Below are positions 26,709 through 37,614 of a stretch of 64,000 nucleotides of DNA, one piece after another (position 1 is the first letter of the stretch; every line of letters begins with the position of its first letter). Source of the stretch: Synechococcus sp. PCC 7335 (GTDB taxonomy: Bacteria > Cyanobacteriota > Cyanobacteriia > Phormidesmidales > Phormidesmidaceae). The DNA lies in the NCBI RefSeq assembly GCF_000155595.1, contig NZ_DS989905.1, positions 695,040 through 759,039 of the forward strand. The letters run 5' to 3'. A program made the translations under genes and the position numbers. The notes beneath the pieces are model-generated. The model was given only the letters and a program-made list of their open reading frames with translations. It made no database searches and was not told the origin of the DNA.

Positions 26709-28509
26709 GGGGTTTGAGTAGTAATGGATGCTGTTGGCGAAGTCGAAGTGCGGTGTCCGTGTCAGAATCGAGCTATCACTTCCGTACTCTATGCTGAAGC
26801 GCTGAGAGGAATGGGTTTATGTTGAAAGTTCAGCCTGCTGGTTTAGTACCTACCGAGACCGCTCGCATCGCTCGCCAAATTTTGCCTAACGGTAACCGCT
26901 ATCTGACGCTACGAGACGAACTGGGTTCAATCTATAGCGATCGCAATTTCTCATCACTCTTTCCAACGCACGGCCAACCAGCCCAGTGCCCTTGGCGGCT
27001 AGCTCTCGTCTCTGTGATGCAGTTTGCAGAAGACTTGTCGGATCGGCAAGCTGCCGAAGCGGTCAAGACACGAATTGACTGGAAGTACGCGCTTGGCCTG
27101 AAGCTCGCCAACCCTGGCTTTGACTTCTCAGTACTCAGCGAGTTTCGCACTCGTTTACTGAGCGGCGGCCAAGAAGAGCAGATACTCGATCTTTTGCTAG
27201 AACGTCTTAGAGAAAAGGGCTGGCTAAAAGCAGGCGAAAAACAAAGAACAGACTCCACCCATGTTCTGGCCGCTATCCGCACGCTGAACCGACTAGAGGG
27301 GGTGGGTGAAACGCTGCGAGCAACACTCAACGACTTATCAACTGTTGCTCCTGATTGGTTGCAAGCGTGGATACCCAGTGAGTGGTTTGACCGCTACAGC
27401 CGCGCTATCGAAGAGTATCGTTTGCCAAAAGGTATTCCAGCTCGCCAAACCTATGCTGAGACAGTTGGACGCGACGGCATACAATTGCTGAACGTCATCT
27501 ACGAAGAGGGTCCTGATTGGCTCAGGCAAGTTCCGTCCGTAGAAGTTTTGAGACAGACATGGGTTCACCAGTACTTCGTTGATGCAGGTAAAGTACGACT
27601 GCGCTCCGCGAAAGATTTGCCCCCAGCAGGTCAGCGCTACGACTCGCCTTATGACCCGCAAGCTAGATACGGCAACAAACGCAGCACTACCTGGACAGGT
27701 TACAAAGTCCATCTGACAGAAACTTGCGATAAGAAGAGCGTGCATCTAATCACTCATGTTGAAACGACACAAGGACATCTTTCAGATACTGACCAGACTC
27801 AACCTATTCACGAAGCTTTGAGTCGTAAAGCGCTTTCGCCTAAAGAACACATAGTAGACGCAGGATATGTAGACGGTTCGCTTTTAGTTGAAAGTCTTGA
27901 AGCTTTCGATACTAAGCTCGTTGGTCCAGTACGACCCGATGTAAGCTGGCAGGGGAAAGTTAATAACGGCTATGATTTGAGCCACTTTCAGATCAACTGG
28001 AAGCAACGGCAGATGGTCTGTCCGGAAGGAAAGAAAAGCATTGGCTGGACGCCTGCTAAAGACGCTTGGAACAACGATACAATTCGGGTCAAGTTCTCCC
28101 GCACAGATTGCCGTCTTTGCCCAAACCGGGGCTTGTGCACGAAGCGGAAAACAGAACCAAGGTCAGTCACACTACGACCTCACGCTGTACATAAAGCTAT
28201 TCAAGCCAATAGGCGATTGCAGTCAACCAAGACGTGGAAGAAACGCTACAACGTCAGAGCGGGAATTGAAGGGACGCTCTCGCAAGGCGTCCGCGTCTTT
28301 GGTATGAGACAGACACGCTACATCGGGTTGGCCAAAACACACTTACAACATCTGCTAACAGCAGCGGCGATGAACATCGTGCGAATAGCGCGATGGCTTG
28401 ACGGCGTTCCGCATGCAAAAACCCGAACTTCGCGATTCGCTGCGCTCAGGCCATGTGCTTAAGTTTCTGTTTCGACTTCGCCAACAGCATCCATTACTAC
28501 TCGAACCCC
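26709..28509 (+). mobile_element. IS1182-like insertion sequence, apparently complete
   Basis: 39-bp terminal inverted repeats at 26709-26747 and 28471-28509 (GGGGTTTGAGTAGTAATGGA...), differing at one position, enclose one transposase. The symmetry continues for a few bases outside (GCTAA / TTAGC), so the exact ends are not certain. A degenerate copy of the same end lies at 33539-33571. Confidence 0.88.
26819..28462 (+). CDS. IS1182-family transposase
   Basis: 547 residues, uninterrupted. The N-terminal domain (CPWRLALVSVMQFAEDLSDR, DWKYALGLKL) and the DDE catalytic core follow in order: RTDSTHVLAAI (first Asp), KEHIVDAGYVDG (second Asp) and RAGIEGTLSQGVRVFGMRQTRY (Glu). The cysteine cluster CRLCPNRGLCTKR just before the last segment is typical of IS1182/IS1478. 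It catalyses cut-and-paste movement of the element. It could be active, since the frame and both ends are intact. Confidence 0.93.
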   Translation: MLKVQPAGLVPTETARIARQILPNGNRYLTLRDELGSIYSDRNFSSLFPTHGQPAQCPWRLALVSVMQFAEDLSDRQAAEAVKTRIDWKYALGLKLANPGFDFSVLSEFRTRLLSGGQEEQILDLLLERLREKGWLKAGEKQRTDSTHVLAAIRTLNRLEGVGETLRATLNDLSTVAPDWLQAWIPSEWFDRYSRAIEEYRLPKGIPARQTYAETVGRDGIQLLNVIYEEGPDWLRQVPSVEVLRQTWVHQYFVDAGKVRLRSAKDLPPAGQRYDSPYDPQARYGNKRSTTWTGYKVHLTETCDKKSVHLITHVETTQGHLSDTDQTQPIHEALSRKALSPKEHIVDAGYVDGSLLVESLEAFDTKLVGPVRPDVSWQGKVNNGYDLSHFQINWKQRQMVCPEGKKSIGWTPAKDAWNNDTIRVKFSRTDCRLCPNRGLCTKRKTEPRSVTLRPHAVHKAIQANRRLQSTKTWKKRYNVRAGIEGTLSQGVRVFGMRQTRYIGLAKTHLQHLLTAAAMNIVRIARWLDGVPHAKTRTSRFAALRPCA

Positions 28510-28586
28510 GTTAGCTATTGACATCTGATACTTGCAGAAGCCTTGAGTAGAATTCAACCAGCCTGGCGTAAAGTAGGTACTATTCA

Positions 28587-29018
28587 ATGCAGATTCGACC
28601 AGCTCAGCCATCCGATTGTAATCAGTTGATTCGATTGCTACTTGAGTTAGGCTATAGAACTACGGAAGACATTTTCAGAGAGCAATCGACCGTCTATGAC
28701 AAATCTGATTTTTGTAGACTTCTTGTTGCAGAATCAGACGAGAACAAAATTTCAGGACTTATCGCGGGAAGTCTCATTCCCCTCATGCATCAATCAGGAA
28801 GCTTGGGCCGGATAACGGTGTTCGTTGTTGGATTAGAATTTCGAGAGCACGGCGTTGGAACAGCGCTTCTATCTTCTTTGGAAAAGTGGTTCAAAGAAAA
28901 TAACTGTTTACGAATTGAAGTTACTAGCGGCGACCATCGAGAAGCAGCCCACCGTTTTTATGAGGCAAGAGGATACATCCAAGATGAACGGAGATTCATA
29001 AAATCGAATGTCAGCTAG
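28587..29018 (+). CDS. GNAT-family N-acetyltransferase
   Basis: 143 residues. The start MQIRPAQPSDCNQLIRLLLELGY is the typical first strand and helix; the acetyl-CoA pyrophosphate loop is VVGLEFREHGVGTALLSSLEKW (Q/RxxGxG/A: REHGVGTA); the C-terminal strand is ARGYIQDERRFIK. Substrate unknown. It lies just outside the IS1182 right end, alone, and is cytoplasmic. Confidence 0.85.
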   Translation: MQIRPAQPSDCNQLIRLLLELGYRTTEDIFREQSTVYDKSDFCRLLVAESDENKISGLIAGSLIPLMHQSGSLGRITVFVVGLEFREHGVGTALLSSLEKWFKENNCLRIEVTSGDHREAAHRFYEARGYIQDERRFIKSNVS

Positions 29019-29254
29019 CAGAACATAAACTCGGTTTGTATAATCACGGAATAACTATTTTCTCGTATCCCCGATGTCTCGTATTGCATACCTTTTGAGG
29101 CCCTGTGAAAAGTGTGTCTCAAATCATGTCTCAATATTACCTTCTTGAAACGTCAAAGAGATCATGAGACGCGCCGTCATGTGGAGTTGAGAGCGGCGGC
29201 TGGTACGTTTTGAGAAACACGTAGATATTTCAATCCGTCTGCACCTTCGTTGCT

Positions 29255-29794
29255 CTATGCTGTTGTTGCTACAGGACGACTCATTACATAAACTGCATGA
29301 GTTTTATTACCAAACTGTTGAGGTTCCATTTTTTTGACAACCTCAAATCCCAAGCTTTTCCAGAACTGTAATCCTAGCTTGTTAGCCTCAACCACAGACA
29401 ATGATACTTGCTTGATTTCCTGTGCTGTTACCCAGGTTTCAAACGCCTGATAAAGCTCTGAACCCAATCCTTTACCTCGTTGCTCGGGACTCAGCATCAT
29501 CAACCCCAGCCACCATGTTTGATTGTCCGGATAGTGTCGAATCGACTCGATCATCCCAATCAAGTCGTTCTTATCAAATAAACCAAAAATATATTTGTCT
29601 TGAGTCGTTTTTCCATCTGGCAGAGCCTCAAATTCGTCACGCGCTGCTGTTGATGGGGGCGATTGACCATCAGTTAAAAGAGCAAACTCCGTGCATTGTT
29701 CGTAAAGGCTTTGTAGCATTGTCGCGTCCTCTGGGCTGAGGAGCTTTACTGAGTACCCAGGAAGACTCAATGTAAGACCTGCTAATTTATTCAT
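29255..29794 (-). CDS. GNAT-family N-acetyltransferase
   Basis: 179 residues. The CoA loop is LMMLSPEQRGKGLGSELYQAFETW (QRGKGLG), with LGLQFWKSLGFEVVKK in the C-terminal strand-helix. The closest assignable class is the general Acetyltransf_1 group; it is unrelated to the one at 28587 beyond the family. It overlaps the DUF2087 gene at 29787 by 8 bp and is its downstream partner in a two-gene operon. Confidence 0.85.
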   Translation of the reverse strand: MNKLAGLTLSLPGYSVKLLSPEDATMLQSLYEQCTEFALLTDGQSPPSTAARDEFEALPDGKTTQDKYIFGLFDKNDLIGMIESIRHYPDNQTWWLGLMMLSPEQRGKGLGSELYQAFETWVTAQEIKQVSLSVVEANKLGLQFWKSLGFEVVKKMEPQQFGNKTHAVYVMSRPVATTA

Positions 29795-30197
29795 GATCGT
29801 TTCGTGCTACTCGCTTTCTCGCTTCCCGTTCACGTTGTATTTCAGATAAGACATCACGTGGATGAATGCTTCTAGCCTCTAATGCTAAGACTGATGATAT
29901 TTTCGCTTCGTTCGTCCAGTAGGAAGACCCTGATGGATTTCTGAGAAGAAATTTCAGGTCAATTAAGCAACGCCTTACTGTGACATGATCTAATCCAGTT
30001 GGGTCGGTAAATCCTCTAAGCCAATTTACAAGATGGTCATTGACCTCCTGCTCAGAATATTGTTGCTTCGCGCTAAAACTCGATGCTGCTGATGCCATGA
30101 GCAACTCTGTATCAGAAAACTTCTTAGGCAATCGGTTGAGAAGTCCGCCATTTAGTAACCTCGACAGCATCTTCTTCACCTGATCTCTTCCAATCAC
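29787..30197 (-). CDS. DUF2087 protein
   Basis: 136 residues. LPKKFSDTELLMASAASSFSAKQQYSEQEVNDHLVNW and VTVRRCLIDLKFLLRNPSGSSYW match DUF2087, a small helical domain often attached to or placed beside ArsR/MarR regulators or acetyltransferases. A basic C-terminal tail (REREARKRVARNDHE) runs into the downstream GNAT gene with 8 bp overlap. Its molecular function is unknown; RNA or DNA binding is sometimes suggested for the family and cannot be judged here. Confidence 0.75.
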   Translation of the reverse strand: MIGRDQVKKMLSRLLNGGLLNRLPKKFSDTELLMASAASSFSAKQQYSEQEVNDHLVNWLRGFTDPTGLDHVTVRRCLIDLKFLLRNPSGSSYWTNEAKISSVLALEARSIHPRDVLSEIQREREARKRVARNDHE

Positions 30198-30466
30198 GAA
30201 TTTCTCTCCCCTCTAGTCTTACTCAGACTTGTACATTTCCTTTCTTGCGGCATAACTATCTGTAAGGGATGGTGCAAGCGTGGCTGTCAGGAAGTGCAAT
30301 AAGGACTAGGTCAAAGCCTGAAACGTCGAGGACTCGTTAAAAATTTAGCTAAAATCTAGCTTGTCTCTAAAAAACAAGTACAAATAGACTAATCTAAAAC
30401 CCTTGTGTATCAATGCTTTCGAGCTTATTGCACTTGGTAACACCTACGCTTGCACCAGGCCTACTA

Positions 30467-31794
30467 CCTGATTGGCTGACAAAAGATGCAATAGCCAGGT
30501 TGAATCGCTGTCATACAGGGACTTGAGAGCCGCAAAGGTTGCGAGGGGGAGCCAGCGTTCTAAGATTTAGATGCAACTCAAAACCAAAGGAACGCTGTGA
30601 AAAAAACTCCCGCCTCTACGATGCCTTGAAAGCCTGGCTGGGTCAAGATTGCCCCTGGGCACATCTATCGCATCTAACGACCTGCTGTTGGATGGTGTTT
30701 GCGCTGATTCAAACCGGCAGCGTCAGCCTGACAAAGTGGACAACCTACTTGCCCTGTCGCGGTCTCTACGCCCAGAGTAAACAAAGACGGGTGCGTCGCT
30801 GGTTAGGCAATAGCCGCATCAACATCCACCGATTGTACAAACCGCTGATTCAAGCGGCCTTGGCGACCTGGGAAGCCGAGTGCCTTTATCTTTGTTTAGA
30901 CACCTCGCTGTTTTGGGAGCAGTACTGCTTAATTCGGCTAGCCGTGGTGTATCGAGGCCGCTCCATTCCTCTGGCTTGGCGAGTTCTAGAACACAACAGT
31001 GCCTCTGTTGCGTTTGAAGCCTATGAAGAACTGCTCAGGCAGTCTACGCAATACTTGCCTTCAAACGCAAACATGATTCTGTTGGCCGACCGAGGCTTTG
31101 TGCATACCCGTGCGATGACGCTGATAAAACAACTCGGCTGGCACTACCGCATCCGTATCAAAAGTGACACCTGGATTTGGCGACCCGGTTCCGGCTGGTG
31201 TCAACCTAAATCGTTTCACCTAGAACGAGGTCGGGCACTATGTTTCCACCACATCAGACTCCATCGTCACGAACAGTACGGCCCAGTGCATGTCATCATC
31301 GGGCGCAACAACATCAATGGTGAACTTTGGGCCGTCGTCAGCGACCAGCCCACTAGCCCGCAAACCTTTATGGAATATGCCTTGCGCTTCGATATCGAGG
31401 AAGGATTTTTAGACGACCAGTCCGCCGGTTGGAATCTACAACGCTCTGAGATTCGAGGCCTCACTGACCTCTCTCGCTTATGGTTTATTCTGGCAGTAGC
31501 CACGCTTTACGTCACGGCTCAAGGCGTAGCGGTTGTGCAATCAGGCCGTAGGCGATGGATTGACACACACTGGGATAGAGGCAACAGCTACTTTCGCATC
31601 GGATTGGAGTGGACTAAGGCGGCTCTGCTCAACGGTTGGCAGGTGATTAAACAGGCTTGTTTTACCTCTCACATTGATCCGCAACCGGCGATGGCTTCTA
31701 GGCCACAACACAACAAGAAGTCCGGGCGCTTGCTCGATTTCAGCGTGATTACCGTTAAGTTTGTTCCTGATTAAACTTTTGTCAGCCAATCAGG
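30467..31794 (+). mobile_element. IS4-family-like insertion sequence
   Basis: Perfect 19-bp terminal inverted repeats: CCTGATTGGCTGACAAAAG at 30467-30485 and its complement at 31776-31794. One transposase lies between. I see no clear target duplication; the right end abuts the 118-bp direct repeat at 31794. Confidence 0.88.
30539..31774 (+). CDS. IS4-family transposase
   Basis: Up to 411 residues. Catalytic residues of a DDE enzyme are seen in LYLCLDTSLFWEQ (Asp), ILLADRGFVHTRAM (Asp) and YALRFDIEEGFLDDQS (Glu of the YREK-like region), matching IS4. The start at 30539 is a TTG and is uncertain; shorter starts within the first 60 codons are possible. The C-terminal end lies just before the right inverted repeat. 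The element could be active. Confidence 0.85.
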   Translation: MRGGASVLRFRCNSKPKERCEKNSRLYDALKAWLGQDCPWAHLSHLTTCCWMVFALIQTGSVSLTKWTTYLPCRGLYAQSKQRRVRRWLGNSRINIHRLYKPLIQAALATWEAECLYLCLDTSLFWEQYCLIRLAVVYRGRSIPLAWRVLEHNSASVAFEAYEELLRQSTQYLPSNANMILLADRGFVHTRAMTLIKQLGWHYRIRIKSDTWIWRPGSGWCQPKSFHLERGRALCFHHIRLHRHEQYGPVHVIIGRNNINGELWAVVSDQPTSPQTFMEYALRFDIEEGFLDDQSAGWNLQRSEIRGLTDLSRLWFILAVATLYVTAQGVAVVQSGRRRWIDTHWDRGNSYFRIGLEWTKAALLNGWQVIKQACFTSHIDPQPAMASRPQHNKKSGRLLDFSVITVKFVPD

Positions 31795-32314: not shown

Positions 32315-33202
32315 ATGCCAGTGTTTAAGAAAGCAAAACGTAAAGAACGCCGTGAGAAACGTAAAGAACGCAGACAAGTCAGGGTTCAGAATGCTACTCG
32401 GATAGTAACAGACGCCGTTGATAAAGGCACTACTGTTGCCGAGAGTGTGTCATCTAATGGCGTGAGTTTGAAAAAACGCGAAGACCGCATCGTTCGGACT
32501 AGTGAAAGAGTTTTGATTATCTTCTCTGAATTTAATGAGTTCAAAGAAGATAAGAAGGTAATGGAAATGTTGTACGGTTTTGTAGAAAGACAAGGTGTCG
32601 CAGCCGCAACAGGAGTACTATCTCAGCTATATAGCCAAATCATTCCATGCACCGGCTCTACTGCAACTCTATCGAAACTGATTAAACTCTTTGAAGATGT
32701 ACTATCTGACGATGATGTTGAAGAGATTGACTTAATCTGGCATGGACACGGCTCTAAGAGAGATAACGGTTACTTCTTTTCTATGGCACCGGAAGATGGT
32801 GCTGAGAGCTATACAAAAAGTCTTGCACATAAGGGAAGCTATCACGTTGACGACATTGTTAATGCCTTCGACGACTTAGAAGCCGATGAGCGTCTGCGGA
32901 TGTTTTATACTACAGCCTGTGAGAGCGAGTATCTGGCGAAGGGTTTGGTAGATGCAGGATTCTCTTGTGGTGCAGGAGCCCTAGACATCAATACCAACTC
33001 GGCAATCGAATATCCACTATTCCTAAGGAATTGGGCACTCTCGTTGCCCTTCGGAGTAGCGCTTTCAAATGCGTTTACGAAATCTCGATGGCGAGTTACT
33101 GACGCTGCTGTCCGACCCTTTGACAGATTTGAAGATGCTGACTCAACTAAGCGTCAGTTTGGAGATGTGATGACTACGATTCGCACTAACGGTGACTTCT
33201 AG
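32315..33202 (+). CDS. Caspase-fold (CHAT/C11-like) protease-like protein
   Basis: 295 residues. Residues 1-25 are almost entirely Lys/Arg (KKAKRKERREKRKERRQ), then a domain with a caspase-like catalytic pair in the right order: H143/H145 in LIWHGHGSKRD at the end of a hydrophobic strand (EEIDL), and C202 in MFYTTACESEYLAKGL after another strand. This resembles CHAT, clostripain and metacaspase folds (clan CD). It is not a close match to any family I can name with certainty. It stands upstream of the adaptor and STAND genes in the same direction, with a terminator-like hairpin between, and is a plausible effector of that system. The basic head may bind nucleic acid or membranes. Confidence 0.6.
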   Translation: MPVFKKAKRKERREKRKERRQVRVQNATRIVTDAVDKGTTVAESVSSNGVSLKKREDRIVRTSERVLIIFSEFNEFKEDKKVMEMLYGFVERQGVAAATGVLSQLYSQIIPCTGSTATLSKLIKLFEDVLSDDDVEEIDLIWHGHGSKRDNGYFFSMAPEDGAESYTKSLAHKGSYHVDDIVNAFDDLEADERLRMFYTTACESEYLAKGLVDAGFSCGAGALDINTNSAIEYPLFLRNWALSLPFGVALSNAFTKSRWRVTDAAVRPFDRFEDADSTKRQFGDVMTTIRTNGDF

Positions 33203-33308: not shown

Positions 33309-33340
33309 TACTTTAGGGCTGCAATCACAGCCCTAAAGTA
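33309..33340. terminator. Perfect 13-bp hairpin downstream of the caspase-like gene
   Basis: Arms TACTTTAGGGCTG (33309-33321) and its complement (33328-33340), 6-nt loop. A short A/T tract on each side makes it a likely (bidirectional) Rho-independent terminator. Confidence 0.65.
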
Positions 33341-33696: not shown

Positions 33697-34236
33697 ATGT
33701 CTGCTCAAGTCGAGATGGTGTTAAATATGCTGAGGCCAGCAATGGCATCTTTGACGTCTTCAGAGAGGAATGAACTATTAGCTGCACTAACCGACCTTCT
33801 TTGTACAACCAGTAGTGATTCTTCTGCTAGTAGGCAAGTCCAGTCAAATTCAGTGAGTGGCCTAACCTTTGGCGAGGGGAACAGTGCTTTCAACTTCTCA
33901 CCGATTCAGAGTCAAGAGGGAAATGTCAGCGTTTCACCAAACTTTAATCAAGCCTCAACCCAGAATGCAGAGACAAGACAGGTAATAGAAGCATTAGCTG
34001 ATTTCAAACAGACCATTCTTGAGAATAAAGAAATCAATCCACTTCTACAAGATATGGCTAGGGAAAAGGTTGAGAAACTGGAGGAAGAGTTGAAGAAAAC
34101 TGAACCAGATAAAAGCTTGGTTAAACACACGATCACAACCCTTAGAAAAGGTTTAGAGGGTGTCTTAACTCTAGCTGAGCCAACAATGAAAGTAGCGTCG
34201 CTAATCGCTAAGGTTTGGGGAATTCCAGTAGTATGA
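33697..34236 (+). CDS. Small adaptor-like protein with amyloid-signalling-like motif
   Basis: 179 residues, no known family. The N-terminal 38 residues are an amphipathic helical bundle-like segment (MVLNMLRPAMASLTSSERNE). Residues 55-71 are GLTFGEGNSAFNFSPIQ, closely matching residues 19-35 of the STAND protein encoded next (GINFGDGDNTLTFAPVQ). The middle is Asn/Gln/Ser-rich and disordered, followed by a coiled coil (about 95-145: PLLQDMAREKVEKLEEELKK) and a hydrophobic end. The stop codon overlaps the STAND start by 4 bp (ATGA), so the two are translated together. It is likely an adaptor or signalling partner. Confidence 0.7.
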   Translation: MSAQVEMVLNMLRPAMASLTSSERNELLAALTDLLCTTSSDSSASRQVQSNSVSGLTFGEGNSAFNFSPIQSQEGNVSVSPNFNQASTQNAETRQVIEALADFKQTILENKEINPLLQDMAREKVEKLEEELKKTEPDKSLVKHTITTLRKGLEGVLTLAEPTMKVASLIAKVWGIPVV

Positions 34237-36428
34237 GCCAATCAGGAGCAGAGCAGCCATCTCAAAAACAAGAAAATATCGTCCAAGGCATTAATTTTGG
34301 CGATGGGGATAACACGCTTACCTTTGCTCCAGTACAAGTTGAAACACAGATCGAGACACAAATCGTTCAAATTTCTACTAAGAAGGTAACACAACGAGAG
34401 CTTATTAACGCTTCTCCATACAAAGGATTGAAACGATTTAACTTTTCTGATCGAGAACGCTTCTTTGGTCGAGATACTTTAATTAGACGCTTGCTTAAAG
34501 CCGTGAATCAAAGTAGCCTAAGCCTCGTATTAGGGGCATCTGGAAGCGGTAAGTCCTCCGTTGTTAGAGCTGGAGTGATTCCAGAGTTCAAGAATTCACT
34601 CCCAGCCATGAAATTTTATGATTTCATTTTTACACCTGGCAAAGATCCCTTTGAATCTCTTTATCGGTGCTTTTTAAGTGAGGAGAAAGATTATCAGTTC
34701 AGTGAGTCTACAGTTAACATTGTTCGTAAGCAAAGAGCTGAAACCCTTTCGCAAACTATCAATAAGTTAAAGAAAGACGATGAGCATTGGTTATTCTTTA
34801 TCGATCAATTTGAAGAACTATTCACTAACTACAGTGATCCTGAAGTTAGCCAGAGTTTTATTGACGGAATTGTTGAGGTTGCCGAAGCACAGATTAGTTC
34901 TGTCAGAATTGTGCTTGCCATGCGGTCAGACTTTTTGGAACAGTTTAGTTCCTATCCAGCACTAGGTGAAATTTTAAACCAGAACAACATCCATCTGGTC
35001 ACAAATATGCACCCTGATGAGTTACGGCAAGCGATCGAACAACCTGCAGCTAAACATGGAGTCATATTTGAAGAGGGCTTAGTTGAGCAAATTATTAAAG
35101 ATGTTCAAGGGCAGAGTGGCTATCTTCCCTTGCTACAATACACCCTAGATTTACTTTGGGAAAGTGAGCGTTTAGAGCTTGCAGCAGATGCTCATCCAAA
35201 CATTGAAGATCGAACGCTCAATTGGTCAACTTATAATAAACTCGAAGGAGTTCGAGGGGCATTACAAAAACGAGTTAACCAAATCTATCAAAATCAAAAT
35301 CAGGAGGAGCAGATTGCCACCAAACAGATTTTTTTGAGATTAGTCAATATTATTAGTACTGAATCTGGAAGTAAAGCTGTTAGTAGACGAGCCTACCGTT
35401 CTGAATTTATCGGAGAATACATAGAAAAAATTCTAAAAGTATTCGTCGATGAAAACTTATTGGTAAGCAGCTATGAATATTTTAGCAGGGAAGACTTTCT
35501 GTCCAGTGATACTTCCAATCGACATCAGCACGCGACTGTAGAGCTTTCTCATGAAATTTTACTGAGCTCGTGGGATTCATTACGACGTTGGTTAGAAGAA
35601 GAACGAGAAGCAATTATCCTTAAAAATTGGATAGCAGATGAAACTCTTCGATGGCAGAAGGTTCGAGAGGAGTACAGCGATTCTAAAGCCAGAAGTGAAT
35701 TACTCAGGGGAACAAGATTGGGGCAAATATCAGTTCTAAGGGATAGCAGTGCTTTCAAGAAGCTTGGCGGATTAAGTGATCTAGAACATCAATATATTGA
35801 AGCTAGTATCAACTGGCATGATATCCAACAGAAACAAGCCAAAAGACGTCGATGGCTTGCCGTAATTGGACTTAGTGTATTTTCGATAGTCGCTTTAGGA
35901 CTATCATTGTTTGCGTGGCTTCAAGCACAAGAAACAGCCAAAGCCTCAGCAGAGGCTATTGAGCAGCGAGAAATTGCGGAACGTCAAAAGGAAGAGGCTA
36001 TCAAACAACAAAAAATAGCCGAAGAGAGACAATTAGAGGCTCAGGAACAGAAGAAAGTAGCCGAAGAGAGACAATTAGAGGCTCAGGAACAGAAGAAAGT
36101 AGCCGAAGAGCAACGAAGAATAGCTGAGGAACAAGAACAAATCGCTTTGAAAGAAAAAGAAAATGCTGAGATTGAAGCTTTAATAGCAAGAGTTCAGTCA
36201 AGATTTCTTGTTCGCATCTCAGATTTCAATGAGGCAATCATAGAAGAGAACAACATTAGAGCTCCTTCAAGCGTGCTCAGTGACTACTACTATTCATGGT
36301 ATTTAGACCAGGAATATGATGATCCTGATATGAATAAGCTGACCAAAATGATTAAAACATCCTGCCCTGATGCAAAAAATGTAATGGATTGCGAAGAGTG
36401 GCTTGATAGGTTTTTCCCTGATCGATAA
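34233..36428 (+). CDS. STAND NTPase (nSTAND1 type) with membrane anchor and coiled coil
   Basis: 731 residues from the ATG at 34233. Residues 19-35 hold the shared motif; SPYKGLKRFNFSDRERFFGR (61-80) is the standard lead into nSTAND1 domains; Walker A is GASGSGKSS (101-109) and Walker B HWLFFIDQFEE (about 185-195). The arm region extends to about 530. A single membrane helix (LAVIGLSVFSIVALGLSLFAW, about 541-562) follows, then a long charged coiled coil with two identical 14-residue units, and a 75-residue unknown C-terminus. WD40 or TPR sensor repeats, usual in this family, are absent. STAND proteins are signal-activated switches in cell death and phage defence; here ligand and output are unknown. 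Confidence 0.88.
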   Translation: MSQSGAEQPSQKQENIVQGINFGDGDNTLTFAPVQVETQIETQIVQISTKKVTQRELINASPYKGLKRFNFSDRERFFGRDTLIRRLLKAVNQSSLSLVLGASGSGKSSVVRAGVIPEFKNSLPAMKFYDFIFTPGKDPFESLYRCFLSEEKDYQFSESTVNIVRKQRAETLSQTINKLKKDDEHWLFFIDQFEELFTNYSDPEVSQSFIDGIVEVAEAQISSVRIVLAMRSDFLEQFSSYPALGEILNQNNIHLVTNMHPDELRQAIEQPAAKHGVIFEEGLVEQIIKDVQGQSGYLPLLQYTLDLLWESERLELAADAHPNIEDRTLNWSTYNKLEGVRGALQKRVNQIYQNQNQEEQIATKQIFLRLVNIISTESGSKAVSRRAYRSEFIGEYIEKILKVFVDENLLVSSYEYFSREDFLSSDTSNRHQHATVELSHEILLSSWDSLRRWLEEEREAIILKNWIADETLRWQKVREEYSDSKARSELLRGTRLGQISVLRDSSAFKKLGGLSDLEHQYIEASINWHDIQQKQAKRRRWLAVIGLSVFSIVALGLSLFAWLQAQETAKASAEAIEQREIAERQKEEAIKQQKIAEERQLEAQEQKKVAEERQLEAQEQKKVAEEQRRIAEEQEQIALKEKENAEIEALIARVQSRFLVRISDFNEAIIEENNIRAPSSVLSDYYYSWYLDQEYDDPDMNKLTKMIKTSCPDAKNVMDCEEWLDRFFPDR
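36018..36101 (+). repeat. Perfect tandem 42-bp repeat in the STAND coiled coil
   Basis: 36018-36059 and 36060-36101 are identical, 14 codons each (AEERQLEAQEQKKV), with partial copies on both sides. In-frame unit number can change by slippage without breaking the protein. Confidence 0.9.
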
Positions 36429-36497: not shown

Positions 36498-37061
36498 TTA
36501 GGAAGCCGTCTCCGGAGTGACGAGGCGATAGTAGCTAGCGCGACTAATGCCAACCTTCATGCAAATGTCTGTAATGCTCAGCTCACCTGCTTCGGCAAGG
36601 CGCTTTGCCTCCAGCATCTGCCCTTCTGTGATGCTTTTCTTTCTGCCGCCTTTACGTCCTCGCGCTCTAGCTGCCGCCAGTCCTGCTAGGGTGCGCTCAC
36701 GAATGATGTCGCGCTCTAGCTCTGAGATCGATGCCGTCATCCGAAAGAAGAATTTCCCCATCGCTGAAGCAGTATCAATCTGTTCTTTCAGACTTTTCAG
36801 CTCAACTCCTCTTTTATCTAAGTCTTCGGCCAGTTCAATTAAATGCTTTGTCGAACGACTAGCGCGATCCAGCTTCCAAATAACTAGCACGTCTCCTTCC
36901 CTCAAATGATCGAGGCAATTATTCCACTCCGGGCGATGAGCCTTCGCTCCGCTTTCGCCCTGGTCGCAGAAGACGCGATCGCATCCCTCTTCATTTAGAG
37001 CATCAAGCTGCAAATCCAAATCCTGCTCAAAAGTAGAGACCCGAGCGTAGCCAACCTTCAT
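36498..37061 (-). CDS. Serine resolvase/invertase (Tn3-type site-specific recombinase)
   Basis: 187 residues from the ATG at 37061 (MKVGYARVSTFEQDL, the catalytic Ser being S9 in YARVST). Other catalytic arginines are in VIWKLDRASRS. The C-terminal helix-turn-helix (LSITDICMKVGISRASYYRL) binds DNA. It would resolve cointegrates or invert DNA. A GTG at 37073 is a possible longer start. A Tn3 transposase relic lies at 52.6 kb but is not adjacent. It is downstream of and opposite to the STAND gene. Confidence 0.9.
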   Translation of the reverse strand: MKVGYARVSTFEQDLDLQLDALNEEGCDRVFCDQGESGAKAHRPEWNNCLDHLREGDVLVIWKLDRASRSTKHLIELAEDLDKRGVELKSLKEQIDTASAMGKFFFRMTASISELERDIIRERTLAGLAAARARGRKGGRKKSITEGQMLEAKRLAEAGELSITDICMKVGISRASYYRLVTPETAS

Positions 37062-37281
37062 ATTTCGTCTCACAACCCACTAATACCATTCAATTATGAT
37101 ACACAGATTAAGAAACAAGTTGTAAGACAAAGCAAACGACCAAAGCTCGTTGACTGCTTTGTGTTGCACAATTTGTCTTACAAACGGTGGCGATGACACA
37201 TGCTACGTACAGAGTTCATAAGTCTAATGACACTATCGTCACGCCTATCGAGTTAGTTAGGAAAGGCGATAGACTAAATGA

Positions 37282-37614
37282 ATGACTATGCTGATGGTAG
37301 AGATACGTCGTAAGTTTGCTGAGGAGCAGTTCGAGTTTTCTAAACACGCTGTCGATCAATCTATCCTGCGTCAGATTCGTGTTCAAGAGATTAGAGAGGT
37401 CATTGCAAACGGCCAAGTTATAGAGGACTACCCAGAAGATAAGTACGGCCCGAGTTGCTTAATCTCAGGTTCGACGCAGGCACAACGTCCTATCCATATC
37501 CAATGCAGTTATCCCACTCGTTTACTCGTCAAAGTCATCACAGTATACGAACCTGACCCTCAGCGGTGGAATCACAACTTTACTCAAAGGAGACGCAAAG
37601 ACGATGACAAATAA
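37282..37614 (+). CDS. DUF4258 protein, likely toxin of a toxin-antitoxin pair
   Basis: 110 residues. FEFSKHAVDQSILRQIRVQEIREVI and VIEDYPEDKYGPSCLI followed by RPIHIQCSYPTRLLVKVITVYEPDPQRW are the DUF4258 pattern, a RelE/BrnT-like fold with the H of KHA and the terminal YEPDP. It is presumed to be an RNase toxin. It overlaps the next gene by 11 bp, which is a YgiT-like partner. Start among three close Met codons is uncertain. Confidence 0.8.
   Translation: MTMLMVEIRRKFAEEQFEFSKHAVDQSILRQIRVQEIREVIANGQVIEDYPEDKYGPSCLISGSTQAQRPIHIQCSYPTRLLVKVITVYEPDPQRWNHNFTQRRRKDDDK

Follow-up and report, generated by a model that had tools for sequence, protein, structure and literature searches.

In the 64,000-nucleotide stretch of Synechococcus sp. 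PCC 7335 DNA analysed here (the window), a small adaptor gene and the STAND gene overlapping it encode proteins that carry the same short motif outside their folded domains. We read the two as an NLR-like pair in which a cluster of STAND motifs would template the partner's motif by cross-beta stacking, and assign this reading a probability of about 0.6. Homotypic signalling from receptor to partner through the shared motif is a well supported reading of the sequences, given their fit to NLR amyloid signalling of the BASS type, and by analogy with those systems the relay probably proceeds by amyloid-like stacking. Immunity in bacteria, fungi and animals is connected through amyloid signalling by NLR-like receptors. 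The biological role of the bacterial cascades has been called a 'major blind spot' (PMC7889193). About 30 small two-gene, often overlapping pairs with graded motif similarity make the specificity of templating between receptor and partner accessible to peptide tests, and three genomes with two different pairs do the same for the question of how cross-talk is prevented between parallel pathways within a cell.

Organization of the adaptor and STAND genes

The stop codon of the adaptor gene and the start codon of the STAND gene share ATGA, implying that the two are translationally coupled (Table 1). The STAND protein comprises the N-terminal motif, an nSTAND1 NTPase (PF20703, 355.2 bits against a cutoff of 27.1, residues 62-478, model positions 1-375 of 379), a predicted transmembrane helix (residues ~542-560, KD19 2.45 at 542) and a long coiled coil. 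It is devoid of the WD40 repeats that most of its relatives possess. Predicted sigma-70 promoters and terminators at the locus occurred in numbers equal to those in shuffled sequences.

Table 1. Features of the adaptor-STAND gene pair (positions in the window)
Feature	Position	Strand	Description or basis
Adaptor gene	33697..34236	+	179 aa ORF; hairpin, disordered linker with motif, four-helix bundle
Adaptor N-terminal helical hairpin, residues 1-39	33697..33813	+	AF2
Adaptor motif copy GLTFGEGNSAFNFSPIQ, residues 55-71	33859..33909	+	sequence
Adaptor C-terminal four-helix bundle, residues 91-179	33967..34233	+	AF2
STAND gene	34233..36428	+	731 aa from ATG 34233
STAND motif copy GINFGDGDNTLTFAPVQ, residues 19-35	34287..34337	+	sequence
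ATGA start-stop overlap, adaptor/STAND	34233..34236	+	sequence

Profile scans assigned the adaptor to no Pfam or NCBIfam family, and the CHAT domain (PF12770) was absent from it in the Pfam scan. Its AF2 model (mean pLDDT 68.6) contains helices at residues 3-17, 21-39, 91-109, 115-132, 139-153 and 157-174, with residues 39-88 predicted to be unstructured (pLDDT <50); residues 1-46 of the STAND likewise fall below a pLDDT of 50. The four-helix bundle is the most conserved region of the adaptor family, and its maximal hydrophobicity (KD19) equals 1.07 in the window adaptor and ranges from 0.9 to 1.8 in relatives. A named fold for the bundle could not be assigned, as Foldseek and VIA-align 2 returned generic helical bundles only; the best Z of the structure search was 10.4, where the tool's usual level for helical bundles is ~13. 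The N-terminal hairpin gave a weak, non-significant hmmsearch match to the N-terminal dimerisation hairpin of ribosomal protein L7/L12 from the PDB (E 0.15-0.23).

The shared motif in the window pair

Judged by the comparison of the two sequences, the shared motif is real and not a product of chance. Its copies are identical at 7 of 17 positions and BLOSUM-positive at 13, and with a score of 52 they form the top pair among all 116,545 ungapped adaptor-by-STAND 17-mer combinations, the best off-register pair scoring 31. The local alignment of adaptor and STAND has a z of 8.1 (0 of 2000 shuffles as good), and when the adaptor was searched against the whole 5.97-Mb genome, the STAND N-terminus ranked second (E = 0.002). 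Chance or composition as the source of the match was ruled out by the shuffles, the all-pairs 17-mer comparison and the control regions described below. The likeness also reaches upstream (QVQSNSVSG / QKQENIVQG) to cover ~25-32 residues in all. Rich in G, N, Q and S with K, E and R scarce, the motif is a charge-poor segment of ~25 residues situated outside the folded domains of both proteins, as indicated by composition and by pLDDT <50.

Both copies stand as the first-pass annotation had quoted them. Its further statement that all structural Gly, Phe, Pro and Gln positions are shared holds for Gly (three positions), Pro and Gln; of the three Phe positions only two are common, adaptor F65 lying opposite STAND L29. 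The likeness to amyloid signalling motifs that it proposed agrees with the N-terminal position in the NLR, the adjacency of the genes, the length and low charge of the motif, its predicted disorder and the purifying selection on it. In five relatives, pN/pS was 0.14 for the motif, 0.15 for the folded tail and 0.21 for the hairpin, and 0.51 and 0.63 for the linkers on either side of the motif. A motif that is predicted to be disordered and is under constraint as strong as that of folded domains points to a function in binding or assembly.

Relatives and pairwise matching

We searched two partly overlapping sets of cyanobacterial genomes (386 and 390) with a profile of the adaptor motif plus tail. 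Strong homologs occupied 36 distinct loci including the window (37 ORFs, L022 and L088 being one locus), and at 30 of these the adaptor homolog overlaps an nSTAND1 gene or is located at most 175 bp from it. STAND partners were called by their NTPase and adaptors by their tail, so that the motif was not used in finding the pairs. A plain protein search of genome contigs retrieved the two closest relatives only. Plasmid-borne pairs are present in Nostoc sp. TCL26-01, on the conjugative plasmid pTCL26-01_C (WP_179052045 / WP_179052046), and in Dolichospermum sp. UHCC 0315A (WP_148766695 / WP_148766693). Both have 4-bp gene overlaps (records NZ_CP040300.1 and NZ_CP043057.1), as in the window, and both are annotated merely as 'hypothetical' and 'WD40 repeat' proteins. 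No relative was found among viral contigs and phage genomes, the viral scan using one peptide pattern.

A motif restricted to one of the two genes in relatives, which the first-pass annotation had named as an outcome that would speak against its proposal, was not what we observed: about 30 distinct adaptor-STAND pairs have the motif in both genes, matched pair by pair. Each of the 30 distinct pairs has its own motif variant that is alike in both proteins, for instance GINIGSGNSDIAFNQQQ / NVSIGDSNVVTFNQTQ in L025, GNVTISGSNNPFNAIQ / GDVQVQGDDNIFNVIQ in L094, VGRDFQIQGEGTTADFSQT / IGRDFQVEGSGHRVDFSQT in L106 and GDVQIRGGNAAFNYQPSQ / GNVSIQGDSASFTFAPTQ in L105. For 15 non-redundant divergent pairs, the mean score against the own partner was 66 compared with 36 for swapped partners (0 of 100,000 permutations as high). 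Control regions had no similarity to the STAND N-terminus, with a mean z of 0.02 for the adaptor tail and 0.16 for the adaptor N-terminal part. The match was weaker in two pairs, L089 and L097 (z of 2.2-2.5 only).

Where adaptor tails are less than 60% identical, own scores are ~64 and mismatched scores 30-41; over all 30 pairs, swapped scores come near own scores only where the tails are at least 60-70% identical. The shared ancestry of each pair is expected to account for part of this contrast; even so, the motif copies of two separate genes have to diverge together. Three genomes contain two pairs with different motifs, and there the own scores (60/77, 65/37 and 82/79) exceed the cross scores (40/36, 39/29 and 21/31), except for the weak L089 pair (37), which is about level with its cross scores. 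Such matched tags in some 30 pairs suggest that the signal passes from receptor to partner.

Domain exchange around the motif

At approximately 15 of the 36 loci, the motif and tail are joined to a CHAT protease in place of the hairpin (PF12770 was confirmed for L030 and L094). The order of motif followed by bundle is kept in all aligned relatives. The receptor side is exchanged as well. At two loci, L103 and L107, the gene that overlaps downstream encodes an NB-ARC or NACHT protein rather than nSTAND1, and the N-termini of these neighbors carry the matched motif (z of 9.5 and 8.2). Matched motifs also occur in a neighbor without a Pfam family (L099, z 8.3) and in an nSTAND1 start at a contig edge (L098, z 4.9). 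Considering the hairpin/CHAT swap and the layout with the motif before the bundle, the constant element is the motif and not the effector. For the window protein, the label 'adaptor' given in the first-pass annotation is a reasonable guess. In relatives, however, the motif and tail come fused with a CHAT protease, which means that the effector can be the partner itself.

Several variations on the two-gene layout were noted. Immediately downstream of the STAND gene, L026, L092, L106, L109, L110, L111 and L113 have a gene for a large papain-like C1 protease (PF00112 in L026, L106 and L109), which makes some loci three-gene modules. The C1 protease was considered as a third carrier of the motif and rejected, as its sequence has no match to it. 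A tandem of two nSTAND1 genes lies behind one CHAT-motif-tail gene in L101 and L102; each of the two carries the matched motif, and they may represent two receptors that act on one effector. No adjacent matched partner was found for L028 and L100 among the 36 loci. The CHAT-motif-tail protein of L100 is adjoined by a NACHT protein (L100:2998-5325) with its own copy of the four-helix tail near the N-terminus, suggesting from its sequence that the tail can also act homotypically. Finally, cyanobacterial pentapeptide-repeat proteins and small proteins in L115-L118 and L120-L122 have a diverged form of the tail at their C-terminus, with a different G/N-rich motif ahead of it, e.g. NITIRDINNSAVNFGEIIGDVTNTINQ; they possibly belong to a wider family of signalling tails.

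Comparison with known signalling systems

The closest parallels are found among bacterial amyloid signalling sequences. According to Dyrka et al. 2020, as summarized in PMC7889193, PMC8086366 and PMC12261475, BASS1-10 are common to Bell-domain effectors and NLRs. In the model for these systems, the motif at the NLR N-terminus templates the same fold in the effector encoded by the adjacent gene; known partners include CHAT and TIR as well as Bell proteins (PMC7889193). The motifs are ~25 residues long and work in pairs or triplets (PMC12261475). Almost all of the features that sequence can address agree with this model. The window pair and its relatives resemble BASS as outlined in these summaries: they are cyanobacterial, a short motif at the start of a STAND/NLR recurs in the product of an adjoining or overlapping gene, CHAT domains serve as alternative partners, and the partner has a helical bundle. 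The window pair differs from the summarized Bell-BASS order, which has the motif at the effector C-terminus, in that the window motif (55-71) precedes the bundle (91-174). In addition, the last helix of the window bundle, at a KD19 of 1.07, is not clearly transmembrane, so hydrophobicity alone gives no support to a Bell-like membrane attack by the window adaptor. The N-terminal hairpin has no described counterpart in the literature searched, the comparison with BASS1-10 being one of published descriptions. Against one published BASS3 peptide (PMC8086366), the two window motifs gave z values of 3.8 and 2.6, which are suggestive only.

The core of the window motif, G-phi-x-phi-G followed by [DE]-G-[ND], is similar to those of RHIM, fungal PP and BASS3. 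However, the RHIM core is G-(I,V)-Q-(I,V)-G (PMC7885112), whereas the window copies read G-L-T-F-G and G-I-N-F-G, with T or N for Q and F or L for I/V, and are not RHIM cores; further pairs in the family, several in number (NFQV...DFSQT, SGxNNxFNxIQ), lack a RHIM-like appearance. The EAD and bDLD elements of STAND conflict systems (PMC8195603, PMC10907252) are likewise homotypic and common to STAND and effector, but they are folded domains, while the window element is a segment of 17-25 residues that is predicted to be disordered. Among PADLOC candidates, the C-terminal third of PDC-M14B matches the adaptor bundle (PDLC04449, E 2e-8) and the tail of one CHAT-type relative (E 3e-6); the former match is confined to adaptor residues 70-170 and is not full-length.

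The principle is known, and the variant consists of a motif before a C-terminal bundle, the hairpin/CHAT exchange, three NTPase classes of receptor and pair-by-pair divergence. This layout was not found described in the literature searched, the scope of which did not extend to Dyrka et al. 2020; that survey may include some cyanobacterial members, and for this reason we do not claim a new family. Tentatively, and at somewhat less than even odds, we propose an undescribed cyanobacterial group of amyloid motifs, in which either a hairpin adaptor or a CHAT protease bears a modular cassette of motif and C-terminal bundle. Receptors of the nSTAND1, NB-ARC or NACHT class would read this cassette, and its divergence from pair to pair, with the match inside each pair preserved, would give parallel insulated pathways, even two per genome. 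If true, the group would represent a natural lock-and-key set for cross-seeding specificity.

Proposed mechanism and alternatives

In the proposed NLR-like signalling pair, the STAND, with its motif, nSTAND1 NTPase, membrane helix and coiled coil, would act as the switch and the small protein as its dedicated downstream partner. On sensing a trigger the STAND would oligomerise and bring its N-terminal motifs together, and the clustered motifs would adopt a beta-arch or cross-beta stack. This stack would template the same fold in the partner motif and thereby cluster the partner. In the CHAT-bearing relatives, clustering would activate the protease; the window adaptor is devoid of a catalytic domain, so that either its four-helix bundle would act, in a Bell-like role, or its hairpin would recruit another effector protein. 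Inferred in this scheme are templating by cross-beta stacking, the way in which the signal runs, its trigger, and an outcome in defence or cell death.

All of the sequence evidence would also suit a motif that serves as a homotypic or heterotypic docking element. Such an element would form a complex of finite size, either constitutively or on induction, as a beta-hairpin, as a beta-arch or through coupled folding, with neither amyloid polymerisation nor templating. Matching, constraint, disorder and pairing demand specific recognition between receptor and partner rather than a fibre, and many bacterial NLR systems employ folded homotypic adaptor domains, with EAD8 recruiting a protease (PMC10907252). 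We nevertheless regard such docking as rather unlikely, since the motifs are self-similar on both sides, low in charge and G/N/Q-rich with a central phi-x-phi-G, which is the appearance of an amyloid signalling motif, whereas the two sides of a one-to-one docking pair would be expected to complement rather than resemble each other more often; moreover, AF2 gives neither segment alone a fold.

An improbable explanation is that the two proteins never touch and the motif is a site for a third party, such as a substrate of a protease or kinase, or a decoy aimed at a phage protein. The papain-like C1 protease gene after the STAND in several relatives would suit this idea, but the window and most pairs lack it, no matching motif is found in it, and the shared motif diverges widely among pairs yet stays matched inside each. 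That the likeness is a functionless leftover of duplication or gene conversion between neighbors, or a coincidence of composition, could be suspected from the adjacency of the genes and the low-charge, G/N-rich nature of the segments. This we consider highly improbable in view of the absence of similarity outside the motif (control z ~0), the z of 8.1 against composition-preserving shuffles, the strong purifying selection on the motif with lax flanks, and the preservation of matching across ~30 divergent pairs.

Other STAND proteins and the genomic surroundings

Two other complete nSTAND1 proteins of the genome have a different N-terminal region where the motif would stand. One (L159:3285-6404) has a fused caspase domain (PF00656), and the other (L160:3023-8023) has a caspase-like N-terminus, recognized by eye, and WD40 repeats; both are without the motif. 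They share the nSTAND1 class with the window STAND, have an effector-like N-terminus, and differ from it in that the protease is fused directly instead of residing in a motif-joined partner. This arrangement is compatible with the motif taking the place of an effector input in the window STAND. No such motif was seen by eye at the N-termini of four other STAND loci of the genome.

Upstream of the adaptor, a 295 aa ORF (window 32315-33202, + strand) contains a caspase-like HGHGS...TACES pattern; Pfam, NCBIfam and PADLOC returned nothing for it and the PDB nothing convincing. It is a possible effector neighbor. It was rejected as a fixed third component, as the fetched pair loci contain no homolog and one weak match was detected elsewhere in the 97 genomes searched. 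Between this ORF and the adaptor lies a perfect 11-bp inverted repeat (window 33310-33339; ACTTTAGGGCT, 8-nt loop, AGCCCTAAAGT), which is not a standard terminator since no T-run follows it. The adaptor-STAND locus looks mobile. By eye, transposase-like ORFs and a serine-resolvase-like gene flank the pair (window 26819-31774 and 36498-37073). A gene for a DUF4258 protein is located downstream of the pair (window 37282-37614).
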